This document shows positions 1,807 to 34,586 of a stretch of DNA of 48,220 nucleotides, piece by piece; position 1 is the stretch's first letter; each line of letters begins with the position of its first letter. The position numbers were made by a program, and so were the translations under genes. A model generated the notes under the pieces. The model had not been told where the DNA came from. It did not search any database and saw nothing but the letters and a program-made list of their open reading frames with translations. This stretch comes from Chitinophagaceae bacterium (GTDB taxonomy: Bacteria; Bacteroidota; Bacteroidia; Chitinophagales; Chitinophagaceae), in contig JAICZH010000009.1 of assembly GCA_025933775.1 (NCBI GenBank), positions 1 through 48,220 of the forward strand, written 5' to 3'.

Positions 1807-1823
1807 TTTGTTTATTTAAAATT

Positions 1824-4800: not shown

Positions 4801-5054
4801 TTGGTTTGGTAACCTACAAATGAAATGGCAAGTGTTGTTTTTCCATTGGGAACCGTTAATTCAAATTTACCATCTGCTTTTGTGATGGTATTTTTTTTAA
4901 TGCTCTTTACAGAAATTGTTGCGCCTTCCAAGAGATTGTTCTTTGCATCGCGTACTACGCCGCTAATCGTTCGTTGCTGCGCCATACAGGTTGCTGATAA
5001 AAAAAGGAAAGCCATCATGCAAAAACTGTAATGAAGTAATGTCGCTTTTTTCAT
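1824..5054 (-). CDS. SusC/RagA family TonB-linked outer membrane protein
   Basis: 1076 aa; signal peptide, carboxypeptidase-regulatory-like N-domain (ISGVVRDAKNNLLEGATISVK), plug domain (VDQLLQGRVAGLNV... YVIDGVP), C-terminal beta-barrel. Confidence 0.96.
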   Translation of the reverse strand: MKKATLLHYSFCMMAFLFLSATCMAQQRTISGVVRDAKNNLLEGATISVKSIKKNTITKADGKFELTVPNGKTTLAISFVGYQTKSVTVPANENSVSITLNETSNQLNDVVIVGVQSQSKRKTTSAISTVLSKDIENLPAPSVDQLLQGRVAGLNVQIGSGEPGVAPTIVVRGNTRVNTNIGDNNVAQAHALSSPLYVIDGVPTNPEDISNAFDVTGTNYLAGININDIESVDVQKDAAATAAWGSRGANGVVYIKTKKGALGKPEFRVNMYGGVTQQPNLLQTATGAAERKEKLNIINQYAMPGQLASLPQILTDSLNPYFNNATDWQGLFYRTGSVQNVDATVSAANENVNYRISANYYDEKGIIEDFGFKRYSMRGNFDFKISSRLNSQLIVSFAKNDRQRGRKYYGNSDDNTPVSGSSQPSSFYLLTGFDSSNFTGIYSKLRNKNINDYYNASFTLNYKVLPSLKYTFQGAANVSSTNRDYFQPSNIDEVAAKNPDADAQPSYAESDKGTYSTYFISNTLNFIKKIEAGKHVHNFAITGSQQFNADVSNNNVVSGYNVPSNNIQVVSGIPQSDLSGHSSYAADGLLSFIGQGQYDFDNKYLLYGSYRTDASSRFGTNTKWGYFPAGGIGWIVSEEKFMDKIKNVIPFLKLRGSYGISGNQSPDFYAPYNSYGIPGTYNGSVAIQPSYTNGLTKNNLTWTKTEQKDFGVDAQLFNNRITLAFDVYEKLSKDDYYDFQLPFYTGFQSVNFNAHDLWVSNRGMDITLSTHNLSPKSPLQWDMQITISHNKNAIAKLPNNNRTFVIDDYYGVSRIFAVGQPIYEMFQLKYQGVYNNQSEIPFNPITGVGLTYFKGNHKVVPGDPKWEDVNNIGDVWPDEDNGAAYGDRVPTGDPNPKFTGGWVNNFSYKNFSLSVLSIFTWKRTIVNTFFQQQISNIVGGYSSSINSFASYRLPDLSGINYWTPQKLKADPNYKADFPSINPFGPSYYQYIPISSQFNEDGSYFKVKSISLSYAFPQSIIQKLKIKGLSVYGTVDNVLTLKKGTMPNPELVDELGIYTGGLYPTPTEITLGADVQF

Positions 5055-14623: not shown

Positions 14624-16513
14624 TTAATCAACTTTTTTCAAACTTACCATCAACACAGGAATTTGCAAAGCATGACGCACAGAATTTACTGTTTCGCCGT
14701 AAATAATATCTTTAAATCCCCGGTGGCCATGAGCGCCCACCACAAGCATATCTGCGTTGTTTTCTTTTACCAGTCGCACAATTTCCTTTGCTCTGTTTTT
14801 GAATCCAAGACAGCTAATAGCATTGAACCCTTTTTCTTTTAATTGATCTACATAAAAATCTAATTGCGATTGATCTCTTCGTGTTTCGTAATCATCGCTT
14901 TGGCCGCCCCAAAGTTTTGCTGATACGCTTTCTACAATATGAATTAAAATAAATTGAGTGCGTGCATTACGCTGCCCGATTGCGTAGCTAATTAGCTTCA
15001 TATCATTTTCAGAAAAATCAAGAGCGATGGCTATCCTGTTGTATAGCGGAATATCGAGCGATATGTTTTTCATTTCAGGATGTATTTTAATAGATGTTGA
15101 TATTTTTCTTTGTGCAATTGCCGGTTCAAAAATGATATACAAAAGTAAACCCGTAAAAAATATTCCACTGGCGCCAATTATAATTTTTGGAATTACAGGT
15201 GCATTCTCAAATACAGGCGCTGACTGGCTTATGAGCATTTTAAAATTAAGCCAAACAAGAATGGCGGCTATAATCCATGCAATTATTTTTGTAAAAAAAT
15301 TTATAGTAAAATCGCCCATTTTTGTTTTATCACTTACAAAATGAATTAAAGGAATAATAGCAAACCCAAGTTGCACGCTCAGTATTACCTGGCTTAAAAT
15401 AAGCAATGAATCAATTTGTTTTTCGCCATAAATAATAATTACAATCAATGCCGGAATTATGGCGAGCATCCTGGTGATAAGCCTTCGCAGCAAGGGATTG
15501 ATGCGCAGGCTTAAATATCCTTCCATAACAATTTGCCCCGCCAGAGTGCCCGTAATTGTTGAGCTTTGGCCTGCAGCTATAAGCGCTACTGCAAATAAAG
15601 TTGGCGCTACATTTCCTAAAAAATGCGGCAATAATAAATATGCTTCACGAATTTCGGTAACCTGTTTTCCTGTTTTTAAAAAAATATTTGCTGCTACAAT
15701 TAATATAGCTGCATTTACAAAAAAAGCCATATTCAATGCAACACCGCTATCAATGCGATTGAATTTAATAGCTTGTTGTATTCCTTCATTTGTGCGGTTA
15801 ATTTTTCTTGTTTGCACCAGAGCCGAATGTAAATAAAGATTATGCGGCATTACGGTGGCGCCAATAATTCCTATGGCAATGTACAATGCTTCATCGTTTT
15901 TAATATTCGGTGCAAAACCTCTTGCTATTTCACCCACATCGGGTTTAATCAAAATCATTTGTATTAAAAATGCCGTTGCTATTATTGCAACTAAAGCAAT
16001 TATAAATGCCTCCATTTTTCTCATGCCAAGCGATTGAAGATAGAGCAATAAAAAAGTATCGAGCACGGTAAAACATACGCCCCAAATGAGCGGCAAGCCT
16101 GTAAGCAATTGAATGCCGATTGCCATTCCTAAAACTTCTGCAAGATCGCAGGCTGCAATAGCAATCTCTGCAAGAATGTATAAAGTGAAATTTACAAACT
16201 TCGGGTACGCTTCCCTGTTAGCTTGTGCCAGGTCTCTTCCCCTTACAATTCCTAACCTTGCTGATAAGCCCTGCAACAACAAAGCCATGAGATTGCTCAT
16301 CAAAAGCACCCATATTAATGAATAACCGAATTTGCTTCCACCTTGCAAGTCGGTGGCCCAGTTGCCGGGGTCCATATAACCAACGCTTATGAGATAAGCG
16401 GGACCTAAAAAAGAAAATATTCTTTTCCATCCCATTCTTTTTTCGGTATCAATGCTTTCATGTACATCGCCTAATGATTTACTATATATTTTTTTTTCAA
16501 TTATCATACACAA
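14624..16513 (-). CDS. Nramp family divalent metal transporter with C-terminal UspA domain
   Basis: 629 aa; TM1 'GYMDPGNWATD', TM6 'ATVMPHNLYLHSALVQTR'; C-terminal ~150 aa Usp-like with 'ADMLVVGAHGHRGFKDIIYGETVNSVRHALQIPVLMV'. Confidence 0.93.
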   Translation of the reverse strand: MCMIIEKKIYSKSLGDVHESIDTEKRMGWKRIFSFLGPAYLISVGYMDPGNWATDLQGGSKFGYSLIWVLLMSNLMALLLQGLSARLGIVRGRDLAQANREAYPKFVNFTLYILAEIAIAACDLAEVLGMAIGIQLLTGLPLIWGVCFTVLDTFLLLYLQSLGMRKMEAFIIALVAIIATAFLIQMILIKPDVGEIARGFAPNIKNDEALYIAIGIIGATVMPHNLYLHSALVQTRKINRTNEGIQQAIKFNRIDSGVALNMAFFVNAAILIVAANIFLKTGKQVTEIREAYLLLPHFLGNVAPTLFAVALIAAGQSSTITGTLAGQIVMEGYLSLRINPLLRRLITRMLAIIPALIVIIIYGEKQIDSLLILSQVILSVQLGFAIIPLIHFVSDKTKMGDFTINFFTKIIAWIIAAILVWLNFKMLISQSAPVFENAPVIPKIIIGASGIFFTGLLLYIIFEPAIAQRKISTSIKIHPEMKNISLDIPLYNRIAIALDFSENDMKLISYAIGQRNARTQFILIHIVESVSAKLWGGQSDDYETRRDQSQLDFYVDQLKEKGFNAISCLGFKNRAKEIVRLVKENNADMLVVGAHGHRGFKDIIYGETVNSVRHALQIPVLMVSLKKVD

Positions 16514-17438: not shown

Positions 17439-19091
17439 ATGAGTTTTAAAGATTACCAAGTTCCCTATGAAACCGACTATCGTTATTCTAAAAAAGTTGC
17501 TTACTTCTCAATGGAGTTTGCTATTCACCAACCTTTAAAAATATATAGCGGCGGTCTTGGATTTTTATCAGGCTCTCATTTGCGAAGCGCCTATGAGCTG
17601 AAACAAAACTTAATTGGAATCGGCATATTCTGGAAAGAAGGATATTACGACCAGGCCCGAAACCAAGACCAGACGCTGCATGTAACGTGGATAGATAAAA
17701 TTTATAATTTTCTCGAAGATACCGGCATCATGTACCAGATACCTATTCATGATCATCCGGTATGGGTAAAAGTTTGGTATTTAAATCCTACAACTTTTAA
17801 TACCGCTCCTCTTTTTTTATTGAGTACCGATGTTCCCGAAAATGATTTTGTATCGAGAACGATTACCAACAGGTTGTATGATGGAAATGCTGCTACTAAA
17901 ATTGCACAATTTATTTTATTGGGAATCGGCGGCGCCAAATTAATTGATGAATTAAATTTTAATCCTGAAATATATCATCTCAATGAAGCGCATTCGGTGA
18001 GCGCTGCATTTTATTTATATAAAAAATATGGCAATAAAGAAGATGTGAAGAAAAAAATTGTTTTTACAACCCACACGCCCGAAGAAGCAGGCAATGAAAA
18101 GCATGATATGTTTTTGTGTGAAAAAATGAGTTACTTCTATGGAATGCCACTTGAACAGGTAAGAGAATTAACAGGAATGACGGATCATCTTTTCAATCAT
18201 TCATTGGCAGCATTGCGCTTTGCACATCTTGCTAATGGCGTATCTCAACTGCATGGCGAAGTAAGCAGACAAATGTGGAGCAAGTACGAAGGCATTTGCG
18301 AAATAAAAGCAATTACTAATGCACAGAATTGGAAATACTGGGCGGATAAACAATTGTACCGCGCCAAAGAAGAAGGAAATGATAGTTGGTTTGATGATCG
18401 CAAAAGATATCTCAAGAAACGCGGTTTGGAAATAGTTGCGGATCAAACAGGTAAATTAATGGATACAAATGTGCTTACTATTGTATGGGCAAGAAGATTT
18501 GCCGGTTATAAAAGAGCCGAATTAATAACAAGAGACCATACCCGCTTTGAAGCGTTATTAAATAATAAAAAATATCCTGTACAAATTATATGGGCCGGAA
18601 AGCCCTACCCTCTTGATTATCCCGCCATTGCTGATTTCAATCATTTGGTGCATCTCAGCAAACAGTACAAAAATGTAGCAGTGTGTGTAGGCTATGAACT
18701 TTTTCTTAGCAGAAGACTAAAGCAATGTGCTGATGTATGGCTTAATAATCCAAGAGTGCCTCGTGAGGCAAGTGGAACCAGTGGAATGAGTGCTGCAATG
18801 AATGGAGCGGTAAGCCTCAGTACCAATGATGGATGGATTTGTGAATTTATTAATAATGGCAACAATGGTTTTGTAGTGCCTCCCGCAGATTATATGAATA
18901 TGCATGTGGAAGAACAGGATAATTACGACATGGATAAACTTTATGAAATTCTCGAAAATGAAATATTACCACTTTATTATAATGACCACGATACGTGGCG
19001 ACAGATTATGAAAAATGCCATGCGTGATGTGCAGGTACAATTCGACAGCAATAGAATGGCAAATGAATATTACGAAATATTATACCGGTAA
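17439..19091 (+). CDS. Alpha-glucan phosphorylase-like protein (GT35-like), probable non-canonical active site
   Basis: 550 aa; 'VAYFSMEFAIHQPLKIYSGGLGFLSGSHLRSAYEL', 'TTHTPEEAGNEKHD', 'VWLNNPRVPREASGTSGMSAAMNGAVSLSTNDGW'. Confidence 0.85.
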   Translation: MSFKDYQVPYETDYRYSKKVAYFSMEFAIHQPLKIYSGGLGFLSGSHLRSAYELKQNLIGIGIFWKEGYYDQARNQDQTLHVTWIDKIYNFLEDTGIMYQIPIHDHPVWVKVWYLNPTTFNTAPLFLLSTDVPENDFVSRTITNRLYDGNAATKIAQFILLGIGGAKLIDELNFNPEIYHLNEAHSVSAAFYLYKKYGNKEDVKKKIVFTTHTPEEAGNEKHDMFLCEKMSYFYGMPLEQVRELTGMTDHLFNHSLAALRFAHLANGVSQLHGEVSRQMWSKYEGICEIKAITNAQNWKYWADKQLYRAKEEGNDSWFDDRKRYLKKRGLEIVADQTGKLMDTNVLTIVWARRFAGYKRAELITRDHTRFEALLNNKKYPVQIIWAGKPYPLDYPAIADFNHLVHLSKQYKNVAVCVGYELFLSRRLKQCADVWLNNPRVPREASGTSGMSAAMNGAVSLSTNDGWICEFINNGNNGFVVPPADYMNMHVEEQDNYDMDKLYEILENEILPLYYNDHDTWRQIMKNAMRDVQVQFDSNRMANEYYEILYR

Positions 19092-20350: not shown

Positions 20351-21811
20351 TTAAAATATCAATGTTTCTATGGAATGTGGTAAAATGCTTACCTGTGCTG
20401 CATCTCCGCCTATCCATAAATTATAATCCGTTTTTTTATCGGTTTGGTTCATTACAATCACGGCAATTTTTCCATCTTTGTTTATAAAAGCTGTTGCCTG
20501 TAATGCGCTTCTGCTGGGCGCTGCACTTATTCGCTTTGCGCCCGGGCGAACGAATTTTGAAAAATGACCGATATAATAATAGGCGTTGGTATAAATCAAT
20601 TCACCTGTTTTGGTAATGGCATGTACCGGAGCAAAACAAAAATTGCCAACATGATTCGGACCGCCTGTTTCATCGAGTAAAATATTCCAATCCGTCCAGC
20701 CAACTGCGCCATTATTAAAATCATGAATCATTGATTGTCCATAACGCTCTCCAAGTTTCCAATCATGTAACTGATCTAACCGGAAAGGAAACCCACAACC
20801 TTCTGTAAACATTAAATTTTTATTGGGAAAGCTTTCATGCACGCGTTCTACATTTTCAAACATCTGGTCGCCGCCGCTCCAGTCTTCATACCAATGGAAA
20901 CCCATGCCCCATGCATATTTGGCGGCAGCCGGGTCTTCAAATATTGTGCTCGCTCTTTGATACATCAGGTCGCGGTTGTGATCCCAAACAATTATTTTTT
21001 TATCACCTAATCCATTTCGTTGCATCGTTGGGCCGAGATAATTTTTTAAAAAATCTCTTTCTTCTTCTGCGGTGTAAATGCACGATTCCCATGTTTGCTT
21101 TGCCATCGGTTCGTTTTGAATGGTAATTCCCCAAATGGGTATGCCTTCTTTTTTATATGCATTAATAAACTTGCCATAAAAATTAGCCCAGCTTTCGTAA
21201 TATGCCGGCAATAAATGTCCGCCATGCAGCACATCGTGATTGTCTTTCATAAATGCAGGCGGACTCCATGGGCTTGCAAAAATAGTTAGCTTTCCACCAG
21301 CTGCAGCAATAGCTTGTTTAATAAATGGAATACGATATTTTTTATCATGATCAATGCTGAAAGTTTTTAAATCTTTATCGCCACCTTTTACATAGCTGTA
21401 ACTTTCACTGCTGAAATCACAACTTTGAATGTTTGTTCTCGCCAGCGTATAGCCGATACCGTTAGTAACGCTGTAATAAGCACGCAAGATTTCCTGTTGC
21501 TTGTTTTTAGGTAATTTAAAAAAAGTTTCTGCAGAAGCATCCGTTAATGCGCCTCCGATTCCTAAAATAGTTTGAAAAGTTTTTGTGGGATTAACAAATA
21601 CGCAAACCTGTGTTTCAAAAGGCTGCCCCATGTGTGTAAACATTGCAGTATCCGTTGCTGAAAGCCGGTAAGATGTATTATCGGCCGTGGTATATACAAT
21701 TACCTTTTTATTTTTAGTGTTATAATTTTTTGCTTTAAGAGTAACTGTATTTTTTTGCGCTAATGCAAAAGTGATTGGTGAAAAAAATAAGAATAAAAAA
21801 TACTTTTTCAT
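20351..21811 (-). CDS. Glycoside hydrolase family 30
   Basis: ORF to 21847, likely start MKKYFLFLFF at 21811; 'WGITIQNEPMAKQ' (acid/base) and 'NLMFTEGCGFP' (nucleophile). Confidence 0.92.
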   Translation of the reverse strand: MKKYFLFLFFSPITFALAQKNTVTLKAKNYNTKNKKVIVYTTADNTSYRLSATDTAMFTHMGQPFETQVCVFVNPTKTFQTILGIGGALTDASAETFFKLPKNKQQEILRAYYSVTNGIGYTLARTNIQSCDFSSESYSYVKGGDKDLKTFSIDHDKKYRIPFIKQAIAAAGGKLTIFASPWSPPAFMKDNHDVLHGGHLLPAYYESWANFYGKFINAYKKEGIPIWGITIQNEPMAKQTWESCIYTAEEERDFLKNYLGPTMQRNGLGDKKIIVWDHNRDLMYQRASTIFEDPAAAKYAWGMGFHWYEDWSGGDQMFENVERVHESFPNKNLMFTEGCGFPFRLDQLHDWKLGERYGQSMIHDFNNGAVGWTDWNILLDETGGPNHVGNFCFAPVHAITKTGELIYTNAYYYIGHFSKFVRPGAKRISAAPSRSALQATAFINKDGKIAVIVMNQTDKKTDYNLWIGGDAAQVSILPHSIETLIF

Positions 21812-21837
21812 TTTCGATTGCTGATTATTTAAAAAAT

Positions 21838-23304
21838 TTATTTCCAACTATAAGTGCCTACAGCGCCGGAAGGTAATGTAGTTGTTATCCACTTTCCATT
21901 AAAGCGAATATTAAAAGTTGCATCGGCTCCATCATTTTCTACAATCAAAACTTTTTTTCCATCAGGAGTTTTAAATGCAACATTTTGCAAATCGCCTGCA
22001 ATATTACTTCCAATGCGCACTGAGCCTGGTACAACAAATTTTGATGCATGTGCAATAATATAATATCCTACATTTCTGGTTACTGTTCCGCCAATCGTTA
22101 ATGCGCCTTTGCATTGATCGCAACCGCCTTGAGTGTGTGGTTGAAAAGAAGGATCGTTTGCGAGATTCCATTCCAGCGCCACACGGCTCCAGTTGCGCAT
22201 AGAACCAATGATTACATTTTTTAAATGCCATTTTAAATCGCCGCCAAAGCTGCCGGTTGATGAAGTATATTGCTCCGTAAAATAAACTGCTTTGTCAGGA
22301 AATGCATTATGCACCTGGCTTAAAGCGCTTATATCGCCGGCATATAAATGAAATGCAGAACCATTGATGAATGTATTGGCTGCAGCATCACTTAAAACAG
22401 TAATTGGATAATCTGGATGATCGCAATTATGATCGTAACAAATAATTTTTGTAGAAATATTTGCAGATTGAAACGCTGGCCCTAAATTATTTTTTATAAA
22501 ATTTGCTTCTTCCGTTGCATCCATCACAAGGCTTGGATTATTACCCGGATTCAATGGTTCATTTTGCGGTGTAACTGCGTCTATCGTGATGCCGTTAGCT
22601 TTCATTTGCTGAATATATTTTACAAAATATTGCGCATACACATTATAATATTGTGTTTGTAAACTCCCGCCGATTGTGCTGGCATTATCTTTCATCCAAA
22701 CGGGCGCACTCCATGGTGTAGCAATAATTTTTATTGAAGGATTTATTGCAATAATTTCTTTTAATAAAGGAATCAAATCTGTTTCATCATTGCGCAAGCT
22801 AAAGCTGTCGAGATTTACATCCGTTTTTCCTGCGGACACATCATCATAACTAAATACCGAAGCATTTAAATCGGATGCGCCAATGCTGATGCGCAGGTAA
22901 CTGATGCTAATTGAATTGGCGTCACTGCCAAAAAGTTCTTTTAATAAATTCGCTTTATCGGTTGCATTCATAAGATTGATTACATAAGCGCTGCCGCCAG
23001 TGAGAGTAAATCCAAATCCATCAATCGTTTGAAAAGTTTGCGAAGTATCTACATCAATGTTTGCATAAACATTTGCAGTGGTTCCAAAAGATAAAGTGGT
23101 GGATTGTTTTTGTAATAAAACCGATTGATCATTTTTAGTAAGCCAGAAATCAACATCATTCACTCCAACCGGGGGCAATGGTGGCGCAGGCGGCGCAGGA
23201 TTTATATTTCCGTTTCCGGAGGATGAACCTTTTGAACACGCAAAAAAAATAGTTATTACAAAAGCTATAATTATTTTACAAACAAAATTTCTGCTGAACA
23301 TCAT
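21838..23304 (-). CDS. Glycoside hydrolase family 30, lipoprotein
   Basis: 488 aa; lipobox 'FFACSKG'; 'AVTPQNEPLNPGN' and 'VYFTEQYTSS'; 'TIDGFGFTLTGGSA' N-terminal motif. Confidence 0.92.
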   Translation of the reverse strand: MMFSRNFVCKIIIAFVITIFFACSKGSSSGNGNINPAPPAPPLPPVGVNDVDFWLTKNDQSVLLQKQSTTLSFGTTANVYANIDVDTSQTFQTIDGFGFTLTGGSAYVINLMNATDKANLLKELFGSDANSISISYLRISIGASDLNASVFSYDDVSAGKTDVNLDSFSLRNDETDLIPLLKEIIAINPSIKIIATPWSAPVWMKDNASTIGGSLQTQYYNVYAQYFVKYIQQMKANGITIDAVTPQNEPLNPGNNPSLVMDATEEANFIKNNLGPAFQSANISTKIICYDHNCDHPDYPITVLSDAAANTFINGSAFHLYAGDISALSQVHNAFPDKAVYFTEQYTSSTGSFGGDLKWHLKNVIIGSMRNWSRVALEWNLANDPSFQPHTQGGCDQCKGALTIGGTVTRNVGYYIIAHASKFVVPGSVRIGSNIAGDLQNVAFKTPDGKKVLIVENDGADATFNIRFNGKWITTTLPSGAVGTYSWK

Positions 23305-23463: not shown

Positions 23464-24108
23464 TCATTTCTTTTTAGCAGTTGCAGTTTTATTACTATTC
23501 ACATCTTCCAATTCATTTTCATCTTCATCTTCATCATTTGCTTCTGCATTTATTGAAGATTCGGCAATCCTGCTCAGGGTTTCATCTGCTTCCCTTTCTT
23601 CATTTAATGTTTGTTCCAAAAGATCGGCTACTTCGTTTTCACCAATAGTTTTTGCAAAGGCGCACAAAGTGCCATAGCTTGCAATTTCATAATGTTCTAC
23701 TTTTTGGGCTGCAGAAATTATTCCTGCATCACGCACAACGCCTTGTTCTGTGCTTTGCATAATCTCTTCAGCTTCTTTTATGAGGCCGCTCATGGCTTCG
23801 CATTTTTTTGCCTGAGCGGGTTTTTCCATCAATTCAAAAGCCTGCTCACACCTTTCAACATGTCCTTTAGTAACTTCGAGATGTTCTTCCAATGCATTAA
23901 TCAATTCTTGTGTAGTTGCATTCTTGGCCATTTTGGGGAGTGCTTTTGTTAATGCTTTTTCTGCCCAATAAATATCTTTTAATTCATCTTCAAATAAATC
24001 ACGCAGGCCTTCGGCGGCGTTTGATTTTGTTTTAACGGCGCTTTTTTTTGTTTTGCTCATTCCGTTGTGATGTGCTCCGTTATGTGATTTGGTTTTGCTG
24101 GATTTCAT
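23464..24108 (-). CDS. Ferritin-like DUF892 protein (YciE/YciF family)
   Basis: 214 aa; 'GLRDLFEDELKDIYWAEKALTKALPKMAKNATTQELINALEEHLEVTKGHVERCEQAFE' and 'VEHYEIASYGTLCAFAKTIGENEVADLLEQTLNEEREADETL'. Confidence 0.93.
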   Translation of the reverse strand: MKSSKTKSHNGAHHNGMSKTKKSAVKTKSNAAEGLRDLFEDELKDIYWAEKALTKALPKMAKNATTQELINALEEHLEVTKGHVERCEQAFELMEKPAQAKKCEAMSGLIKEAEEIMQSTEQGVVRDAGIISAAQKVEHYEIASYGTLCAFAKTIGENEVADLLEQTLNEEREADETLSRIAESSINAEANDEDEDENELEDVNSNKTATAKKK

Positions 24109-24411
24109 GTTGTAAAGATTTAATAATTAAAAAAGTTGTTTATGTATGCATTCAAGAAAATCATGCCATTGTTTTTTTTATAAACTCAAATAAAAAACAA
24201 CTCCTTTTTTACAGCATTATTAAAATACGGTTTTATAATTCCACATATTTTATTAAATGAGGATTTTATTTCTCAAATCTACAAAATAGGGCGCCGGGAG
24301 AAATGTACGCTATCTGAAAAAAAATGGCATATAAATAGTATTTATGAAATCAATACAGGCTTATCTCTTATATAGCTTTCAGAAAATAGTAACTTCTTAA
24401 ATTATATATAC

Positions 24412-25551
24412 ATGGATCTTATATGTTTTAGTCATATCAGGTGGAACTTTGTTTATCAACGTCCGCAACATTTATTAACCCGATTTGCAGTTTACAACCG
24501 GGTTTTTATTATAGAAGAACCTTTATATGATCAGGATTCTGATTTTTATGAAATAAAAAAAGATACCGGAAATAATAATTTATGGATTGTGCTTTTGCAC
24601 GTTTCTAAAAACGCACCTGCTGAAAAAAGAGCGCATATTTTAAAGGCGTTGATAGATTCATGTGTGTATGCGGGAAAAATTAAAAATTATATTCTTTGGT
24701 ATTACTCTCCTATGGCATTGAGCTATAGCAATCATCTGCATCCTACGCTAATTGTGTATGATTGTATGGACGAATTATCAGCTTTTAAATTTGCACCTCC
24801 TGAATTAAAGAAAATGGAAGTACGCTTGCTAAGCCTTGCTGATATTGTGTTTACAGGAGGTTATAGTTTGTATGAAACAAAAAAACATTTGCATCACAAC
24901 ATTTATCCTTTCCCCAGCAGCATTGATAAATCGCATTTTAGTGCAGCACGAACAAATCTTAAAATTCCATCCGATCAGGCATCCATACCGCATCCGCAGT
25001 TTGGTTTTTACGGAGTAATTGATGAACGTTTTCATATTTCATTGATTGATGAATTATCTTCTTTGCGGCCTGAGTGGCATTTTATTTTTATAGGGCCTGT
25101 TATAAAAATTGATCCGGCTTTGCTTCCACAAAAGAAAAATATACATTATCCCGGAAGCAAAAATTATAATGAATTGCCCTATTATCTTTCAGGTTGGGAT
25201 GTTGCTATTTTACCTTTTGCATTAAATGAATCAACCAAATATATAAGCCCTACAAAAACACCGGAATACCTTGCAGGAGGCAAGCCGGTAATTTCCACTT
25301 CAATAACGGACGTAGTTACTCCTTATGGGAAACAAGGATTGGTGCATATTGCAGATACTGCTGAAGAATTTATTATTGCCGCAGAAAAGATTTTTAATGA
25401 TAAAAATAAAAATGAATGGAAGATAAAAGTTGATCAATTTCTTAAAAATATTTCATGGAATAAAACATGGCACCACATGTTTGCGTTAATAGAAGAGGCA
25501 TTAGAAAAAAAAGTGATACCCAACCCCCAAAAACAAAAAGAATATGTTTGA
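24412..25551 (+). CDS. Glycosyltransferase, GT4-like/group 1
   Basis: 379 aa; 'MDLICFSHIRWNFVYQRPQHLLTRFA', 'YDCMDELSAF', 'PTKTPEYLAGGKPVISTSITDV'; overlaps glf by 8 nt. Confidence 0.87.
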   Translation: MDLICFSHIRWNFVYQRPQHLLTRFAVYNRVFIIEEPLYDQDSDFYEIKKDTGNNNLWIVLLHVSKNAPAEKRAHILKALIDSCVYAGKIKNYILWYYSPMALSYSNHLHPTLIVYDCMDELSAFKFAPPELKKMEVRLLSLADIVFTGGYSLYETKKHLHHNIYPFPSSIDKSHFSAARTNLKIPSDQASIPHPQFGFYGVIDERFHISLIDELSSLRPEWHFIFIGPVIKIDPALLPQKKNIHYPGSKNYNELPYYLSGWDVAILPFALNESTKYISPTKTPEYLAGGKPVISTSITDVVTPYGKQGLVHIADTAEEFIIAAEKIFNDKNKNEWKIKVDQFLKNISWNKTWHHMFALIEEALEKKVIPNPQKQKEYV

Positions 25552-26686
25552 TTACATGATAGTAGGTGCAGGCTTAGCCGGCGCAGTTTTAGCAGAACGG
25601 TTAGCATCGCAATCCAATAAAAAAATTTTATTAGTTGATAAAAGAAATCATATCGGCGGTAATACTTTTGATTATTATAATAAAGACGGATTGCTTGTTC
25701 ACAAATATGGCCCGCATATCTTTCATACTAACAGCAAAGAAGTTTTTACTTACCTGGGAAACTTTACCCAGTGGCGCCCTTATGAACACAGGGTTTTAGC
25801 AAGCGTGGATGGAATGCTGGTTCCCATCCCAATCAATTTAAATACCATTAATCAATTGTATGGATTGAATTTAAACAGCGCTGAAGTAGATGCCTTTTTA
25901 GAATCGAAAGCAGAAAAGAAAATTAAAATTGTTACTTCTGAAGACGTGGTGGTAAATAAAGTAGGAAGAGAATTGTATGAAAAATTTTTTAAAGGGTACA
26001 CACGCAAGCAATGGGATCTTGATCCATCAGAGCTGGATGCATCGGTAACTTCCCGAATCCCTACACGCAACAATCGTGATGACAGGTATTTCACTGATAC
26101 GTACCAGGCAATTCCTTTATACGGTTACACACGCATGTTTCAGAAGATGCTGCATCATCCTAACATAAAAATATTGCTGAATACCGATTATAAAGAAGTG
26201 CAGGATTCTATTTGTTATAAAAATATGATCTACACCGGCCCGATTGATTATTTCTATGATTATTGTTATGGAAAGCTGCCTTATCGTTCTTTAGAATTTA
26301 AATTTGAAACGTTAGAAGAAAATGTTTTTCAAAAAACGGGAACCATTAATTATCCTAACGAGCATGCCTATACGCGAATTACAGAATTTAAATATTTAAC
26401 CGGTCAAAAACATCCGAAAACCACTGTCGTTTATGAATTTCCAAAAGATGAAGGCGACCCGTATTATCCTGTACCGCGTGCAGAAAATGCATTGCTATAC
26501 AAAAGATACCGCCAGTTAGCTGAGCAGGAAAACAAAATATATTTTGCAGGCCGATTAGCAACTTATAAATATTATAATATGGATCAGGTAGTAGCACAAG
26601 CGCTCACTCTTTACAAAAAAATTATTACTCCACATGAATTTGCACATCATTTAAATGGGCATCAGCTACCAATCATACAATCCTGA
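25544..26686 (+). CDS. glf: UDP-galactopyranose mutase
   Basis: 380 aa; FAD Rossmann 'MIVGAGLAGAVLAERLA', 'KYGPHIFHTN', 'GYTRKQWDLDP', 'SRIPTRNNRDDRYF', 'YTRITEFKYLTGQ', 'YYNMDQVVAQAL'. Confidence 0.96.
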   Translation: MFDYMIVGAGLAGAVLAERLASQSNKKILLVDKRNHIGGNTFDYYNKDGLLVHKYGPHIFHTNSKEVFTYLGNFTQWRPYEHRVLASVDGMLVPIPINLNTINQLYGLNLNSAEVDAFLESKAEKKIKIVTSEDVVVNKVGRELYEKFFKGYTRKQWDLDPSELDASVTSRIPTRNNRDDRYFTDTYQAIPLYGYTRMFQKMLHHPNIKILLNTDYKEVQDSICYKNMIYTGPIDYFYDYCYGKLPYRSLEFKFETLEENVFQKTGTINYPNEHAYTRITEFKYLTGQKHPKTTVVYEFPKDEGDPYYPVPRAENALLYKRYRQLAEQENKIYFAGRLATYKYYNMDQVVAQALTLYKKIITPHEFAHHLNGHQLPIIQS

Positions 26687-28802
26687 AATATGGGGCGGTT
26701 TGGAATGCACCATCAACAGGGTCGGAAATAGTTTTCGCGATCAGCTACAATACACCGGCCATTACACAAGAAATGATGATATAAATAGAATTGCTTTATT
26801 GGGATTTAAAAAAATCCGTTATCCCATTTTATGGGAAGCGCATCAAAAAATTACAATAAAAGAAAAAATAAATTGGAAACGCACAAAGGGGCAACTTGAT
26901 AAATTAAAAGCAAATAATATTATTCCAATCGCAGGATTAGTGCACCATGGAAGCGGCCCCGCTTTTACTAATTTAATGGATGATTCATTTGCCCAACAAT
27001 TATCCATGTATGCAACAAAAGTTGCTACCCAATTTCCCTGGCTTGAATATTATACTCCAGTAAACGAACCGTTAACTACAGCAAGATTTAGCGGGTTGTA
27101 CGGGCATTGGTTTCCGCATCATAAAAATTCATTAAGCTTTGCAAAAATATTTTTAAACCAATTAAAAGGCATTGTGCTTTCTATGAAAGCCATTCGAAAA
27201 ATAAATGCAAATGCCAAATTAGTACAAACCGAAGACCTTGCTAAAACCCACAGCACGCCTGCATTACAGTACCAGGCAACTTTTGAAAATGAAAGACGAT
27301 GGCTCACTTATGATATGCTTTGTGGCAAAGTAAATGATCAACATTTTTTTTGGAATTATTTTATTTCTTTAGGAATTGAACCAGTTGCATTGCAATTTTT
27401 TTTAGATAATACATGCGTGCCTGATGTTGCCGGTTTTAATTATTATGTAACATCGGAACGTTTTCTTGATGATAAAATTCATTTATACCCTCATTGCGAT
27501 TGTGGTGGAAACGGCCAGCATTTATATGCTGATATTGCAGCTGTGAGAGCGGTAAAACCTGCAGGCTTAAAATCATTATTAAAAGAAGCATGGCAAAGGT
27601 ATCATCTTCCATTGGCGCTTACCGAAGTGCATATAAATTGTACAAGAGAAGAGCAGTTGCGATGGTTTAAAGAAGCATGGGATATAAGCTGTAATTTAAA
27701 TAAAGAAGGTGTAAATATTAAAGCGATTACAGCATGGTCGTTGTTAGGCGCTTTCGATTGGAACAGTTTATTAACGCGTGAAGAAAAAATTTATGAAACA
27801 GGAGTTTATGATATCTCCAAAAATGAATTGCGTTCTACTGCTCTTGTAAAGCTGATTCAATCATTAATAAAAACCGGCGACTATCATCATCCTGTTATTC
27901 AGGAAAAAGGTTGGTGGCATAAAAGTTATCCGGGCAATAAAAATTTTTTTATAAATGCTTCTTCTTCTCCTTTATTAATTTTTGGTTGCAATGGTACTTT
28001 AGGGAAAGCATTTACTCATCTTTGTGAAAGGCGCTCCATTTCTTATCGTGCGTTGTCGCATAACGAAGCTGATATAACAAAAAAAGATGAAATTGAAGAT
28101 GCCATTAATAAATATAAACCTTGGGCAATAATAAATGCTGCGGGTTTTGTAAGAGTGGATGATGCAGAAGCAGAAAGAAAAAAATGTTTCAATCTTAATG
28201 CTGAAGCGCCGGGTAATTTAGCTAGCATTTGTAAAAATCATTCAATTCAATTAATGACTTTTTCTTCTGATTTGGTTTTTGATGGAGAAAAACAATCGCC
28301 ATACATCGAAGCGGATTTTGTAAAGCCATTAAACGTGTATGGCGAAAGCAAAGCAAAAAGCGAACAGCTTGTTTTAAATAATTATTCTTCGTCTCTCATT
28401 ATAAGAACCAGCGCATTTTTTGGTCCCTGGGATCAATATAATTTTGTTTACTATATTTTAAATTCTTTAAAAGAAAATAAACCATGTTATGCTGCAAACG
28501 ATGTTACTGTTTCGCCAACCTATGTTCCTCATTTGGCAGATAAAGCGCTTGATCTTTTAATTGATGAAGAAAAAGGAATCTGGCACTTAACCAATGAAGG
28601 AATGATTACATGGCATAGCTTTGCCGAAGAAGTAGCCATGCGAGGCGGATATACTTCCAAAAAAATAATATCATGTTTGCAACAAGAAATGGAATGGAAA
28701 GCGAAACGCCCTGCTTACAGCGCTATGCAAAGCAATAAAGGAATTAAACTCCCGTTACTTCATCATGCAATTGAACAATTTTTCCAAGAAAAAATAATAT
28801 AA
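26655..28802 (+). CDS. Two-domain fusion: GH1-like (N) and RmlD/dTDP-4-dehydrorhamnose reductase-like SDR (C)
   Basis: 715 aa; GH1 'YYTPVNEPLTTARF' and 'LPLALTEVHINC'; C-terminal 'LLIFGCNGTLGKAF' (GxxGxxG), 'FSSDLVFDG', 'NVYGESKAKSE' (YxxxK). Confidence 0.9.
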   Translation: MGISYQSYNPEIWGGLECTINRVGNSFRDQLQYTGHYTRNDDINRIALLGFKKIRYPILWEAHQKITIKEKINWKRTKGQLDKLKANNIIPIAGLVHHGSGPAFTNLMDDSFAQQLSMYATKVATQFPWLEYYTPVNEPLTTARFSGLYGHWFPHHKNSLSFAKIFLNQLKGIVLSMKAIRKINANAKLVQTEDLAKTHSTPALQYQATFENERRWLTYDMLCGKVNDQHFFWNYFISLGIEPVALQFFLDNTCVPDVAGFNYYVTSERFLDDKIHLYPHCDCGGNGQHLYADIAAVRAVKPAGLKSLLKEAWQRYHLPLALTEVHINCTREEQLRWFKEAWDISCNLNKEGVNIKAITAWSLLGAFDWNSLLTREEKIYETGVYDISKNELRSTALVKLIQSLIKTGDYHHPVIQEKGWWHKSYPGNKNFFINASSSPLLIFGCNGTLGKAFTHLCERRSISYRALSHNEADITKKDEIEDAINKYKPWAIINAAGFVRVDDAEAERKKCFNLNAEAPGNLASICKNHSIQLMTFSSDLVFDGEKQSPYIEADFVKPLNVYGESKAKSEQLVLNNYSSSLIIRTSAFFGPWDQYNFVYYILNSLKENKPCYAANDVTVSPTYVPHLADKALDLLIDEEKGIWHLTNEGMITWHSFAEEVAMRGGYTSKKIISCLQQEMEWKAKRPAYSAMQSNKGIKLPLLHHAIEQFFQEKII

Positions 28803-30010
28803 TGCCCGGATCAAAATTCATGTTTTCAACAGGAATAGAAAACAGTTATCCTACAATTTTACTGCCCGATGGAACTACTAAAAGAGTAGATGAAATGGAA
28901 AAGGCAGGTCATTATAAAAATTGGGAAACCGATTTTCATTTGGTAAAAGAATTAGGAATAGAATTTTTACGCTATGGAACGCCGTATTATAGTAATCACC
29001 AGGCTCCGGGCAAATATGACTGGAGCTTTACCGATGAAACTTTTAACCGTTTAAAAGAATTACAAATAAATCCTATTGTTGATTTGTGCCACTTTGGAGT
29101 GCCCGATTGGTTGGGCAATTTTCAAAATCCTGACTTCCCTTTTTATTTCGCTGAATATGCAAAAGCATTTGCGCAGCGATTTCCTTATTTGCAATTATAC
29201 ACTCCAATTAATGAAATTTTTATTGCTGCCATGTTTTCTGCGCAGTATGGATGGTGGAATGAAAGGTTGCAATCGGACGAAGCATTTGTAACTGCATTAA
29301 AACATTTATGCAAGGCAAATGTAATGGCCATGCATGCGATATTGCAGGTGCAGCCCGAAGCCACTTTTATACAAAGCGAATCATCAGAATATTTTCATGC
29401 AATAGACCCACTGGCATTGCCCTTGGCAAGATTTTTAAATCAAAAAAGATTTCTTTCGCTTGACCTTACGTATGGTTTTCCGCTTAACGTTACCATGTAT
29501 GAATATTTATTAAAAAACGGAATGACTGCCGAGGAATATAAATGGTTTACCGATAACCAGGTAAAAGGAAGTTGCATTATGGGAAACGATTATTATGTAA
29601 CCAACGAACACATTGTGCACCCCGATGGGCACACACAGGCAGCCGGTGAAATTTTTGGTTATTACGTAATTACCAGCCAGTATTATCGCCGCTATAAATT
29701 GCCGATAATGCATACGGAAACTAATATAAAAATGCCTGCGAGTACAGAATGGCTTTTGAAACAATGGGCTAATGTGCATCGGCTGAAACATGATGGAATA
29801 CCTGTGGTTGGCTTTACGTGGTACAGCCTTACACATCAGGTAGATTGGGACTCTGCACTGAGAAATGATTTGGGAAATATAAATAAATTAGGATTGTATG
29901 ATCTCGAAAGAAAAATAACGCCGGTAGGAAAAGCTTACAAAAAATTAATAGAACAATGGAAAGATATAATTACCGAAGAAAGCTATGGGCTTGTGTTTCA
30001 AAACTGGTAA
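28802..30010 (+). CDS. Family 1 glycosyl hydrolase-like protein, cytosolic
   Basis: 402 aa; 'QLYTPINEIFIAAMFSAQYGWWNERL' and 'LPIMHTETNIKMPAS'; no signal peptide; ATG overlaps the preceding TAA. Confidence 0.87.
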   Translation: MPGSKFMFSTGIENSYPTILLPDGTTKRVDEMEKAGHYKNWETDFHLVKELGIEFLRYGTPYYSNHQAPGKYDWSFTDETFNRLKELQINPIVDLCHFGVPDWLGNFQNPDFPFYFAEYAKAFAQRFPYLQLYTPINEIFIAAMFSAQYGWWNERLQSDEAFVTALKHLCKANVMAMHAILQVQPEATFIQSESSEYFHAIDPLALPLARFLNQKRFLSLDLTYGFPLNVTMYEYLLKNGMTAEEYKWFTDNQVKGSCIMGNDYYVTNEHIVHPDGHTQAAGEIFGYYVITSQYYRRYKLPIMHTETNIKMPASTEWLLKQWANVHRLKHDGIPVVGFTWYSLTHQVDWDSALRNDLGNINKLGLYDLERKITPVGKAYKKLIEQWKDIITEESYGLVFQNW

Positions 30011-30481: not shown

Positions 30482-32758
30482 TTATTTTACCCAATTTACA
30501 CTGGCAGATTTTACATCTCTTGAATTACCACCAATCATGATGATAAACTCGCCAGGTTCCCAATCATACTTTAAATCTGCATTATAAAATTTAAGATCAT
30601 CGGGAGTTATTTTGAAAGAAATTGTTTTGGTTTCACCCGGGTTCAGTTCAATTTTTTGAAATCCTTTTAATTCTTTCACCGGCCTGGTAATACTGCCCAC
30701 AACATCTCTGATATAAAGCTGCACTACTTCTTTTCCTTTTCGTGTACCCGTGTTCGTTAGTTGTACCGATGCAGTTAATGTTTTATTTCCTTTCAATAAT
30801 GTATCACTCAATTTTATATCACTGTAATTAAAAGTTGTATAGCTTAATCCAAATCCAAAAGGATACACCGGATCATTGGAAACATCGAGATAATTGGAAC
30901 GAAATTTTTGAAACCATTTTCCCTCCAGCGGCCTTCCTGTATTTTTATGATTATAATAAAGCGGTATCTGTCCTACATTTTGCGGAAAAGTAGTTGTAAG
31001 TTTTCCCGAAGGATTTACATCACCAAACAATACATCTGCAATGGCGTTACCAGCCTCAGTTCCGCCAAACCACACATTTAAAATAGCAGGCACATTTTCC
31101 TGTTCCCATTTTAAGGTAAGCGGCCTTCCGGTAAATAAAACCAACACTACCGGCTTGCCTGTTTTTACCAATGCTTTCAATAAATCTTCCTGTGCATCAG
31201 GAATATTTATCATGCTTCTGCTGGAGCTTTCACCACTCATCTCTGCCGATTCGCCCAATGCTGCAACAATCACATCACTTTTGTTGGCAACTTCTAAAGC
31301 TTCATCAATCATTTGTTGCGCCGAGCGGCTGTCCCATTTAAATGATTTGCCAAACATACCTGCACGCACATCAAACAAACTATCCGATGAAAGATTGGAA
31401 CCTTTTGCATATAAAATATTTACATCGGGCGCTACATTTTTTAAACCCTGAATAACAGAAACGGCTTTTGAAAAATCTGCGGCAACACTCCATGTGCCTG
31501 GCATGTTTTCTTTGTTATCTGCTAAAGGTCCAATCAAAGCAATCGTTCCTGATTTTTTTAATGGAAGAACGGCGTTATCGTTTTTTAATAAAACAAAAGT
31601 TTGCGCAGCAACATCTCTTGCCGCTTTAAGATTTGCGTCAGTAAAAATTTCTGTCTTTGCTCTTTGCTCTTCGCAATATTTATAAGGATTTTCAAACAAT
31701 CCCAATTTATATTTTGCTTCTAAAATTTTTCTACATGCAAAATCAATTTGTTGCTCGGTAACTTTTCCTTTTTGCAAAGATTTTTTTAATGTAGTTAAAA
31801 AACTTTCGCCAACCATATCCATATCAATTCCTGCCATCAATGCTCTTGCAGCAACCGTTTGCAAATCGCCGATGCCATGCGCCACCATTTCATTAATGCC
31901 GGTGTAATCTGTAACCACAAAACCTTTGAAGCCCCATTGCTTACGCAACACGTCAGTAAGTAAAAATTTATTGGCGGTTGCCGGCACGCCATCCACTTCA
32001 TTGAACGATGCCATTACACTTCCTACACCCGCATCCACAGCGGCTTTGTAAGGAGGCAGGTATTCATTGAACATCCGGAGATGGCTCATATCTGTTGTAT
32101 TATAATCACGGCCTCCTTCTGCTGCGCCATATAATGCATAATGTTTTACACAAGCCATAATGTTGTAATTTTTTGAGAAATGATCTCCCTGGTAGCCCTG
32201 CACCATTGCTTTTGCAATTTGTGAACCGAGATAAGGGTCTTCTCCCGAACCTTCTGCAATGCGCCCCCAGCGCGGATCACGGGCAATGTCAACCATTGGT
32301 GAAAATGTCCAGCATATTCCATCGGCGCTTGCTTCATGAGCAGCAATTGATGCAGATTTTTTTATAAGATCCATATCCCAACTGCATGATAAACCAAGCG
32401 GAATTGGAAAAACAGTTTCATAACCATGAATAACATCCATGCCGAATATTAATGGAATTTTTAATCGGCTTTCTCCAACCGCTATCTTTTGCACGGCACT
32501 AATTTTATCAACTCCTTTTATATTAAATAATCCACCTACTTTTCCTTCTTTAATTTTTTTACCAATATCTGAATTACTTGCCTGTCCTGTAACAATATCA
32601 CCCGAGCCAGGTAAATTTAACTGCCCGATCTTTTCATCGAGCGTCATTTTTTTCATTAAAGCATCAATGAATGTTTTCATCTTCGCATCATTGGTTTGGG
32701 AAAAGGAATTTGCAAACAAGCAAACCGTGCAAAATAATAAAGCAATCGATTTTTTCAT
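30482..32758 (-). CDS. Glycoside hydrolase family 3 beta-glucosidase (BglX-like)
   Basis: ORF to 32830, likely start MKKSIALLFCTVCLFANSFSQ (32758). 'KVGGLFNIKG', 'FVVTDYTGINEMV' nucleophile, C-terminal fibronectin III-like domain. Confidence 0.95.
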   Translation of the reverse strand: MKKSIALLFCTVCLFANSFSQTNDAKMKTFIDALMKKMTLDEKIGQLNLPGSGDIVTGQASNSDIGKKIKEGKVGGLFNIKGVDKISAVQKIAVGESRLKIPLIFGMDVIHGYETVFPIPLGLSCSWDMDLIKKSASIAAHEASADGICWTFSPMVDIARDPRWGRIAEGSGEDPYLGSQIAKAMVQGYQGDHFSKNYNIMACVKHYALYGAAEGGRDYNTTDMSHLRMFNEYLPPYKAAVDAGVGSVMASFNEVDGVPATANKFLLTDVLRKQWGFKGFVVTDYTGINEMVAHGIGDLQTVAARALMAGIDMDMVGESFLTTLKKSLQKGKVTEQQIDFACRKILEAKYKLGLFENPYKYCEEQRAKTEIFTDANLKAARDVAAQTFVLLKNDNAVLPLKKSGTIALIGPLADNKENMPGTWSVAADFSKAVSVIQGLKNVAPDVNILYAKGSNLSSDSLFDVRAGMFGKSFKWDSRSAQQMIDEALEVANKSDVIVAALGESAEMSGESSSRSMINIPDAQEDLLKALVKTGKPVVLVLFTGRPLTLKWEQENVPAILNVWFGGTEAGNAIADVLFGDVNPSGKLTTTFPQNVGQIPLYYNHKNTGRPLEGKWFQKFRSNYLDVSNDPVYPFGFGLSYTTFNYSDIKLSDTLLKGNKTLTASVQLTNTGTRKGKEVVQLYIRDVVGSITRPVKELKGFQKIELNPGETKTISFKITPDDLKFYNADLKYDWEPGEFIIMIGGNSRDVKSASVNWVK

Positions 32759-32783
32759 TTTATTGTTTTTAAATTTTCTGTTG

Positions 32784-34586
32784 TTATTCAACTTTAAGAA
32801 TTTCGCTTTTAGGTGATACGCCATTTTCATTTATTGCTTCAATTGAAAAATAATATGGCTTTTCTTTATCCATTGTTTTAAGCCAATATTCATTTGCATT
32901 GTAAACCATTATGCAATTGTATAATTTATCGGGCGCAATACCGAGATAAATATTATACGCATACGCATTATCAACCGTGCGCCATTTTATCCATGCGCTG
33001 CGTTTATCTTTTTCTGTGCGAAGCACAATGAAATCCTTAACTGCTGTGGGTTTGCTTCCGTTGCCATTTCCAAAAACACGAAGCCCGCTTATCGCAAATT
33101 TTCCTGTTGGCATGTGAATATTTTCCAGCTTAATATATTTTGCCTGGACAGGTTTTTCTAATTCAACATAATCATGCGGCACGTCTGTTTTGTTGTTGCT
33201 TTTATCAACAAGCACATTCCATTTTTTTCCATCAACAGAATAATACAATTTATATTGATGATATTGATTGTTGTATTTTCCCAAACGATTACTGTCCACA
33301 TCCTGATCGGCATAATTAATTTGTATTGCATTTACAGTACTTACATTTCCCAAATCCGATTGAATAAATTCTCCTTTATTGGAAGTAGCAGCGCTCCAAT
33401 AGGTTTTAATATTTTCATCAACAGCATTATTGGCATTATAACAGTCATGCGTAGACGAAACCACGACAGGCTTGTTATAATTTAATAACATCCACCCCGT
33501 AAAAGCAGCTTGCCCAAACCCCTCCGGAGGGGCTTTTGAAACTTTCCTTTGGTTAGGTAGGTAAAGCGGATAGTCTCCAAATGCTGCATTCATGTACATT
33601 ACATCATCTTTATCGAAACCCGCAGGCCATATTCCAATCCTTCTTTCAAAATTATTTTTTACAGAAATAGATATGGTAGATACATGCCACCAGTTTTTAT
33701 AATTATCCTGAAACGTTGATCCATGGCCTGCTCCGCGTGCAAAGCCGCCGGGCTTAAAAGATAAAGGATCAGATTGCGGAGTAAATGGGCCCAAAGGATT
33801 TTCACCAACAATTACTCCATCAGCATAACCGCTGAACTCGGTGCCGGGCGCGGCATATTGCAAATAATATTTTCCATTGTGTTTCGTCATCCAGGAGCCT
33901 TCAATAAACGGATCGAGAAAAGTATTATCCCAATGCTCGCCAAAACGCTGCCATCCATAGCGCCAGTCTTCGAGGAAATACATTTCTTTTCTCGCGCCCA
34001 TTGGTTGCATGGTTGTGCGATTTAATTCAACTCCATAAATGGGATAACGGTTGCTGCTTCCATTGTACATGTATAATTTTCCATCATCATCTGTAAAAAA
34101 TGCAGGATCCCATCCACCGATTGAAAATGAATCCACGAGCGGTTTCCATTCATTAGCTTTGGGGTTTGTGCTCATCCAAATGGTAAAAGTAGAAGTGTAT
34201 GTTGATCCGAAAACAATCATCGTATCTCCAATAATTCCCACCGCAGGAGCGCACAATTCATCATAGCCTGCATTCCATGGGCGCAAAAATTTTCTTGAAA
34301 TAAATTTCCAGTTGAGCATATCGCTGCTCCACCAATAACCCCATTGGTTTGTTGAAAATAAATAATAATCGTTTTTATAATTTACAATTACGGGATCGGC
34401 TGTAGCCCTGTGCCTGCCTGCTTCTGAGAAGTTTGGAATGGGCGTATAACCATAATCAATATTAATAGGATTGCAATAAGTTTTTTGCTGCGCAAATAAA
34501 GATTGTGTGTTGAAAAAAATAAAGAATAGAAATGATAAAAATATTTTTTTAATTAATCCCATCTTTTTGAATGGCAAAGATTTCAT
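32784..34586 (-). CDS. Glycoside hydrolase family 43 with F5/8C (CBM32-like) and FN3-like C-terminal domains
   Basis: 600 aa; 'RATADPVIVNYKNDYYLFST', 'GGWDPAFFTDDDGKLYMYNG', 'PFIEGSWMTKHNGKYYL'; then discoidin-like and FN3-like segments. Confidence 0.9.
   Translation of the reverse strand: MKSLPFKKMGLIKKIFLSFLFFIFFNTQSLFAQQKTYCNPINIDYGYTPIPNFSEAGRHRATADPVIVNYKNDYYLFSTNQWGYWWSSDMLNWKFISRKFLRPWNAGYDELCAPAVGIIGDTMIVFGSTYTSTFTIWMSTNPKANEWKPLVDSFSIGGWDPAFFTDDDGKLYMYNGSSNRYPIYGVELNRTTMQPMGARKEMYFLEDWRYGWQRFGEHWDNTFLDPFIEGSWMTKHNGKYYLQYAAPGTEFSGYADGVIVGENPLGPFTPQSDPLSFKPGGFARGAGHGSTFQDNYKNWWHVSTISISVKNNFERRIGIWPAGFDKDDVMYMNAAFGDYPLYLPNQRKVSKAPPEGFGQAAFTGWMLLNYNKPVVVSSTHDCYNANNAVDENIKTYWSAATSNKGEFIQSDLGNVSTVNAIQINYADQDVDSNRLGKYNNQYHQYKLYYSVDGKKWNVLVDKSNNKTDVPHDYVELEKPVQAKYIKLENIHMPTGKFAISGLRVFGNGNGSKPTAVKDFIVLRTEKDKRSAWIKWRTVDNAYAYNIYLGIAPDKLYNCIMVYNANEYWLKTMDKEKPYYFSIEAINENGVSPKSEILKVE
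33505..33560. repeat. Palindrome-containing repeat-like segment inside the GH43 CDS
   Basis: AAACCCCTCCGGAGGGGCTTTTGAAACTTTCCTTTGGTTAGG; core CCCCTCCGGAGGGG is a perfect 14-bp palindrome, in frame. Confidence 0.55.

Follow-up and report, generated by a model that had tools for sequence, protein, structure and literature searches.

The stretch of DNA considered here, 48,220 nucleotides (nt) of contig JAICZH010000009.1 from a Chitinophagaceae bacterium (called the window), contains four overlapping genes on its forward strand. They encode a GT4-like glycosyltransferase (GT), a UDP-galactopyranose mutase (gene glf, protein GLF), a protein in which a glycoside hydrolase family 1 (GH1) domain is fused to an RmlD-like domain, and a second GH1 protein. 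The locus raises the question of what glycosidase-family proteins do beside an enzyme expected to supply galactofuranose (Galf), and whether these genes belong to one pathway at all. We find a genuine, conserved cassette whose genes are functionally linked, and a biosynthetic reading of it is the best supported one: the window would hold one copy of a conserved cytosolic module, composed of a GT4, a UDP-galactopyranose mutase (UGM)-type flavoenzyme and a GH1 protein, which makes a Galf glycoside or glycolipid. We put the probability of this reading at about 0.6.

The genes were followed through 396 Bacteroidota genomes, which were searched with each protein, with a threshold of E<=1e-60 for the GH1a type, i.e. 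the GH1 domain of the fusion. The GT was found in 21 genomes from 14 genera, and every genome with one of the GH1 types lies among these 21: all 5 with a GH1a-type domain (four GH1::RmlD fusions and one GH1a without RmlD), all 10 with the fourth gene of the cassette, GH1b, and all 16 with GH1c, a divergent GH1-like family. Either GH1a or GH1c is present in 20 of the 21 GT genomes; both occur together in G250 alone, which is likewise the sole genome among the 21 to carry two GTs. Hypergeometric tests by genus gave values of 2e-13 for GH1c, 2e-10 for GH1b and 2e-6 for GH1a; these treat genera as independent, and kinship above the genus level stays in them. A scan of 26 genomes, of which 24 have a GH1::RmlD gene, plus G250 (unfused GH1a) and G214 (GH1c), found a GT ortholog in all 26 and a glf passing its cut-off in 25.

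The GH1::RmlD fusion occurs within the Bacteroidota in Segetibacter, Sediminibacterium, Mucilaginibacter, Pedobacter, Desertivirga and Runella. It was also found in Massilia, Noviherbaspirillum, Duganella, Sphingomonas, Sphingobium, Caballeronia, Azospirillum and Microvirga, in Deinococcus and the cyanobacterium Gloeothece, and in one Chloroflexi metagenome-assembled genome, for which a binning error is possible. The GT and glf adjoin the GH1::RmlD gene in many of the carrier genera, and GT-glf or GT-glf-GH1 units exist outside the Bacteroidota in Pseudomonadota, Deinococcota and Cyanobacteriota. The four genes of the window share 8 nt (GT/glf), 32 nt (glf/GH1::RmlD) and 1 nt (GH1::RmlD/GH1b) according to the open reading frame (ORF) coordinates; the first of these overlaps was seen again in five other loci and the second in three. 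Conserved over phyla and with a recurrent overlap geometry, the cassette is more than a product of chance. Fusions were also found. Single proteins of about 800 amino acids (aa) that join GT and GLF occur in Segetibacter, Gloeothece, Sphingomonas, Sphingobium, Azospirillum, Rhizobium and on pSymA of Sinorhizobium meliloti, while S. meliloti has a GT4::GH1c protein together with a GT4::Gfo/Idh/MocA::alcohol dehydrogenase (ADH) protein, a layout shared by Rhizobium. Because of the fusions and the near-perfect co-occurrence with the GT, a coincidental neighbourhood can be ruled out.

The first-pass annotation, made from the letters of the window, had described a tight cassette of GT4-like, glf, GH1::RmlD and GH1 genes with overlaps of 8, 32 and 1 nt and no evident signal peptide, and had proposed that it forms a self-contained pathway. 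The coordinates and overlaps are exactly as it claimed, its family calls were borne out by Pfam and NCBIfam profiles and, for the GH1 and RmlD-like domains, by structure models, and no N-terminal hydrophobic or signal-like stretch was seen in the four proteins by Kyte-Doolittle hydropathy, which was the only, and a crude, measure applied. That the genes act as a unit, and do not merely happen to meet in this one genome, is supported by the co-occurrence in Bacteroidota and by the units in several phyla. Two outcomes that the annotation had named as refuting its proposal, genes that seldom occur together and a standard polysaccharide locus in relatives, did not turn up, the second as judged from the plasmid records examined. 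The set of four stood only in part: the conserved core is the GT, the UDP-sugar mutase (or a related flavoenzyme) and one GH1, with the RmlD domain and the fourth gene as optional additions, GH1b being usually unlinked. GH1b was tried as a core part and rejected, as it is operonic only in the window and one other locus (L010) and lies near a GT in a third (L075). Clustering of recurrent neighbours yielded no further core gene; for the most part it picked up noise from antisense ORFs of high-GC genomes, and the synteny of one clade.

GH1c was recognised because GT-glf-GH1c operons recur in other Bacteroidota, at nine loci. Against the GH1b profile the family reaches 117-167 bits, its mean identity with GH1a is 21%, and the two members scanned gave no Pfam-A match; both catalytic Glu are retained in its members, for example at L059:10509-11657, L075:12238-13458 and L111-L126. 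When the partner type was mapped on a tree of 50 GTs, it changed between GH1a and GH1c 11 times, at least 8 of them forced by well-supported branches. The simplest reading is that GH1a and GH1c would be interchangeable parts, two lineages with one role beside the same GT that have repeatedly displaced each other. The GT tree mixes phyla, and many cassette copies reside on plasmids; such mixing is what horizontal transfer would lead one to expect. In the window itself, GC content gives no clear sign of a recent transfer of the cassette (33.9-37.6%, compared with 35.9% for the window).

The cassette GT is the hub of the system. It has the motifs RPQHL in its N-terminal part and SPTKTPEYLAGGKPV in its C-terminal part, and the nearest NCBIfam model is that of TuaH, a teichuronic acid glycosyltransferase. 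The likeness to TuaH does not go beyond this, since the score of 84 bits is far under the cut-off of 550, no teichuronic acid genes were seen in the window and the host is Gram-negative. The cassette glf, on the other hand, scores 397.1 bits against the TIGR00031 equivalog cut-off of 303.75 and carries the active-site motifs GYTRKQW, AYTRITEF and YKYYNMD (patterns GYTxKxW, YTRxxE and YxYxxMD); it is a true member of the family, from which a supply of UDP-Galf is to be expected. As it has these motifs and is the sole glf in the genome to pass the cut-off, the cassette is the likely Galf source of the organism. In its true glf and expected UDP-Galf supply the cassette resembles the known Galf pathways of O-antigens and mycobacterial galactan, but it differs from them in having no Galf polymer machinery nearby and in having GT4 and GH1 partners in place of GT2 galactofuranosyltransferases.

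Both cassette GH1 proteins match PF00232, and their AlphaFold models, compared with known structures by Foldseek, have the TIM-barrel fold of GH1 and match GH1 beta-glucosidases, in agreement with the first calls; for the fourth gene, the Thermotoga maritima beta-glucosidase is among the best matches, with a TM score of about 0.7, and an ortholog in Sediminibacterium roseum is 82% identical and holds the same operon position. The acid/base and nucleophile Glu pair is invariant in 37 GH1a and 22 GH1b domains, and in all 75 GH1 domains when the three types are taken together. Because of this invariance, GH1a, GH1b and GH1c are probably catalytically competent retaining glycosidases or transglycosidases rather than dead scaffolds. 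They are not filed here as beta-glucosidases, because the two cassette proteins score only 41 and 57 bits against TIGR03356 (BGL), whose equivalog cut-off is 478.5. The fold and the Glu pair are common to them and to GH1 beta-glucosidases and beta-glycosidases such as T. maritima TmGH1 (1od0), but the identity in structural alignments is 15-20%, and the cassette proteins are shorter and have a biosynthetic genomic context.

The C-terminal half of the fusion has the RmlD fold (TM score of 0.91 to 1vl0 for the AlphaFold model), with 220 bits to PF04321 and 221.1 bits to TIGR01214, marginally under the cut-off of 224.05. Its motifs are GxxGTLG, SSD and YxxxK, and Y562, K566 and the glycine motif are kept in 21 fusions, in which the family-specific signature FFGPWDQYNF is also invariant. 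The domain is thus like dTDP-4-dehydrorhamnose reductase (RmlD) in its fold, GxxGxxG and YxxxK, but differs in its fusion to GH1, its score just below the equivalog cut-off and its own signature. The first-pass annotation had described the locus as being without rmlABC, flippase and polymerase genes. The absence of rmlABC holds locally; in the genome, however, galE and rmlB are found elsewhere, as is a second rmlD that passes the cut-off (302.9 bits to TIGR01214) and lies beside rmlC. As rmlB, rmlC and this housekeeping rmlD are encoded elsewhere, the fused domain is not needed for dTDP-rhamnose.

If the cassette is a biosynthetic module, GLF would, as a member of its family, convert UDP-Galp to UDP-Galf, and the GT4 would move Galf, or another sugar next to Galf, onto a soluble or membrane-facing acceptor. 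The GH1, linked to the pathway by genomics, would act as a dedicated retaining glycosidase on the same molecule; the optional RmlD-like domain would probably reduce a keto-sugar intermediate, and GH1b would add one more accessory to this pathway. A small glycoside or glycolipid is a likelier product than a polymer, and the product may serve stress tolerance. All catalytic Glu are kept, but hydrolysis and transfer look alike at the level of sequence. We lean slightly towards GH1 as a trimming or recycling hydrolase, while its action as a transglycosidase that adds or moves a sugar, which had been proposed at first, may be almost an even bet. A precedent for a GH1-family enzyme in stress-related glycolipid transglycosylation is SENSITIVE TO FREEZING 2 (SFR2), which PMC11525325, with reference to Roston et al. 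2014, gives as a plant GH1 galactolipid:galactolipid galactosyltransferase. SFR2 is a plant chloroplast enzyme without a GT/UGM partner; it is a functional precedent but not a demonstrated homologue of the cassette GH1. The most far-reaching form of the proposal is a pathway that moves horizontally over at least 4 phyla, in which the cytosolic GH1 is an obligate biosynthetic transglycosidase partner of the GT4/UDP-sugar-mutase pair, two very divergent GH1 lineages have been swapped many times, and the outcome is a Galf-containing stress protectant; this we advance tentatively, as something rather doubtful.

Several observations weigh against the biosynthetic module as stated. Characterised Galf transferases, such as mycobacterial GlfT1 and GlfT2, belong to GT2 and not GT4, and for this reason Galf is not established as the sugar transferred. 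The flavoenzyme of Pantoea and Noviherbaspirillum is of the PRK07208 type and not a TIGR00031 mutase, and in Massilia a similar amine-oxidase-like domain takes the place of the mutase. One of the 21 GT genomes (G206) has neither GH1a nor GH1c, and in several genomes GLF or GH1 does not adjoin the GT. Our literature search found neither an activity for any GH1a, GH1b or GH1c member nor a published description of the gene combination, although subscription journals were mostly outside its coverage, so that the absence is no proof.

Other explanations have to account for the same facts. The cassette could be a fragment of an ordinary cell-surface polysaccharide system. The GT would then attach Galf as a side branch to an exopolysaccharide or lipopolysaccharide glycan whose polymerase and flippase genes lie elsewhere, and the role of the GH1 proteins would be to trim intermediates that are linked to lipids. 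A glf gene is typical of cell-surface polysaccharide loci, and the S. meliloti and Rhizobium units hold further GT4 proteins. In Rhizobium mesoamericanum, Glf rises 1.9-fold with root exudates along with rfbABCD (PMC5789663), although that Glf may not be an ortholog of the cassette protein. Against this, no flippase, polymerase, chain-length or initiating/lipid-carrier transferase gene is annotated beside the cassette in the plasmid records examined, so that no standard polysaccharide locus appears in these relatives; the chromosomal neighbours are mostly unannotated. The unit also moves as a stand-alone cassette that is often plasmid-borne, and we know of no O-antigen locus with an obligate pairing to a cytosolic GH1 across phyla. 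We therefore regard a polysaccharide fragment as unlikely. Still less probable is a degradative or recycling pathway, in which GH1 cleaves a Galf or Gal glycoconjugate, the RmlD-like domain acts as a reductase on the sugar set free, and GT and GLF rebuild the conjugate. The intact hydrolase residues, the fused dehydrogenase domain and the Gfo/Idh/MocA and zinc-ADH domains of the S. meliloti version would fit it, but the GH1c versions and some GH1a versions have no RmlD, neither a sugar kinase nor an importer is a recurrent neighbour in the cassette surroundings that were examined, and GLF and GT belong to biosynthetic families.

The window also contains GH30, GH43 and GH3-type beta-glucosidase genes, with SusC/SusD 20 kb away, and so the GH1 proteins might be catabolic beta-glucosidases of these glycan-utilisation genes, with glf and GT there by coincidence. 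This is very improbable: hydrophobic stretches at the N-terminus are seen in the neighbouring GH30 and GH3 ORFs, which are encoded on the other strand, but not in the cassette GH1 proteins, and the fusions and GT co-occurrence exclude coincidence. The same fusions, of two and three domains, together with the conserved gene overlaps and the way in which GH1 types have repeatedly replaced each other next to the same GT, largely refute the idea that the genes share no pathway and simply reside together on mobile stress islands. We give that idea hardly any credence, even though the plasmid location speaks for it, as do neighbours like DUF892, manganese catalase and the KGG and DUF1003 proteins. 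An anti-phage defence system was also considered and rejected, PADLOC having given no match for the four proteins (E <= 0.01).

Variants of the architecture were seen in other loci. On pSymA (L058:7398-15807) and on a Rhizobium plasmid (L068), GT::GLF is followed by a GT4 protein and then by GT4::GH1c; the glycan cluster of S. meliloti sits on the symbiotic megaplasmid, and its GT4::Gfo/Idh/MocA::zinc-ADH protein has 1079 aa. A plasmid of Pantoea sp. X85 (L131:6834-10544) encodes a 1236-aa protein that joins GH1c (residues 3-369), GT (390-746) and a PRK07208-like FAD enzyme (about 770-1227) and is annotated merely as an FAD-dependent oxidoreductase. In Massilia and Noviherbaspirillum (L129:6612-9368, L022:6937-9819) an amine-oxidase-like FAD domain is joined to the GT in place of GLF, which suggests a second, putative UDP-sugar mutase-like enzyme. 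GT-glf-GH1a without RmlD occurs in Mesorhizobium, Ensifer and one Deinococcus, and an ABC exporter follows GT-glf-GH1c in Azospirillum and Skermanella.

Table 1. Features of the cassette and its upstream neighbour in the window.
Feature	Position	Strand	Details
GT4-like (GT-B) glycosyltransferase	24412..25551	+	379 aa; PF13692
glf, UDP-galactopyranose mutase	25544..26686	+	380 aa; TIGR00031
GH1::RmlD fusion gene	26655-28802	+	PF00232 + PF04321
GH1a domain of fusion, residues ~10-422	26655..27920	+	PF00232, GH1 fold; Glu 138 acid/base, Glu 324 nucleophile
RmlD-like SDR domain of fusion, residues ~432-715	27948..28799	+	PF04321, motifs, RmlD fold
GH1b, second GH1-family protein (gene 4)	28802..30010	+	402 aa; PF00232; catalytic Glu 138, Glu 306
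DUF892 (YciF-type ferritin-like) gene, divergent neighbour	23464..24108	-	PF05974, 195 bits
Intergenic region DUF892/cassette, 303 nt	24109..24411	.	Position; presumably carries both promoters (putative)

The divergent DUF892 gene (Table 1) had been correctly called in the first-pass annotation and taken as a hint of a stress link. In the window, in Runella, in Mesorhizobium and in one Bacteroidota genus (three genomes), DUF892 is found next to the cassette or next to its GT, and in Ensifer (L038:12511-13024) the DUF892 beside the cassette appears broken into overlapping fragments. It lies within about 5 kb of the GT in 4 of 41 scanned genomes, compared with 0.19 expected (Poisson 5e-5); three of the four cases are from one genus, which leaves two lineages and a P of about 0.017. 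The plasmid cases (Runella, Mesorhizobium and Ensifer) are extra to this count and come without a background. The association thus recurs in unrelated lineages but is of only moderate significance, and the stress link of the cassette is suggestive only. Elsewhere, KGG proteins, DUF1003 proteins and manganese catalase are further neighbours of the cassette. Lone GH1b genes in other genomes (L073-L086, L062-L067) are often near SDR, GMC-oxidoreductase, gluconate dehydrogenase subunit-3 or chaperone/stress genes, and may adjoin GroEL, Hsp20 and Dps-type genes.

Elsewhere in the window, a Nramp metal transporter is fused to a universal stress protein domain (14624-16513; PF01566 + PF00582). A protein of 550 aa (17439-19091), placed between sensor/transport genes and a GH30 pair, resembles glycogen phosphorylase and starch synthase but matches each of these families only in part. 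The glycan-utilisation neighbourhood (20351-23304, 30482-34586 and 226-5054), which comprises a tandem of two GH30-type genes, GH43, a GH3-type beta-glucosidase and, farther off, a SusC/SusD pair, is on the strand opposite to the cassette.

The cassette is widespread and, apparently, so far undescribed. In databases its GH1 proteins are labelled beta-glucosidase or hypothetical, and its glf is taken for a polysaccharide gene. Should the biosynthetic module be true, many such annotations would be misleading and would conceal one shared pathway in Massilia, Sphingomonas, Deinococcus, Rhizobium/Sinorhizobium, Pantoea, Azospirillum, Pedobacter and Chryseobacterium. The natural fusions, GH1::GT::FAD of Pantoea and GT4::GH1 of S. 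meliloti, are handy single proteins for biochemistry. The module would give Galf a testable role beyond O-antigens and mycobacterial walls, and it would allow the use of GH1 enzymes in biosynthesis to be tested in bacteria, in a function similar to that of plant SFR2.

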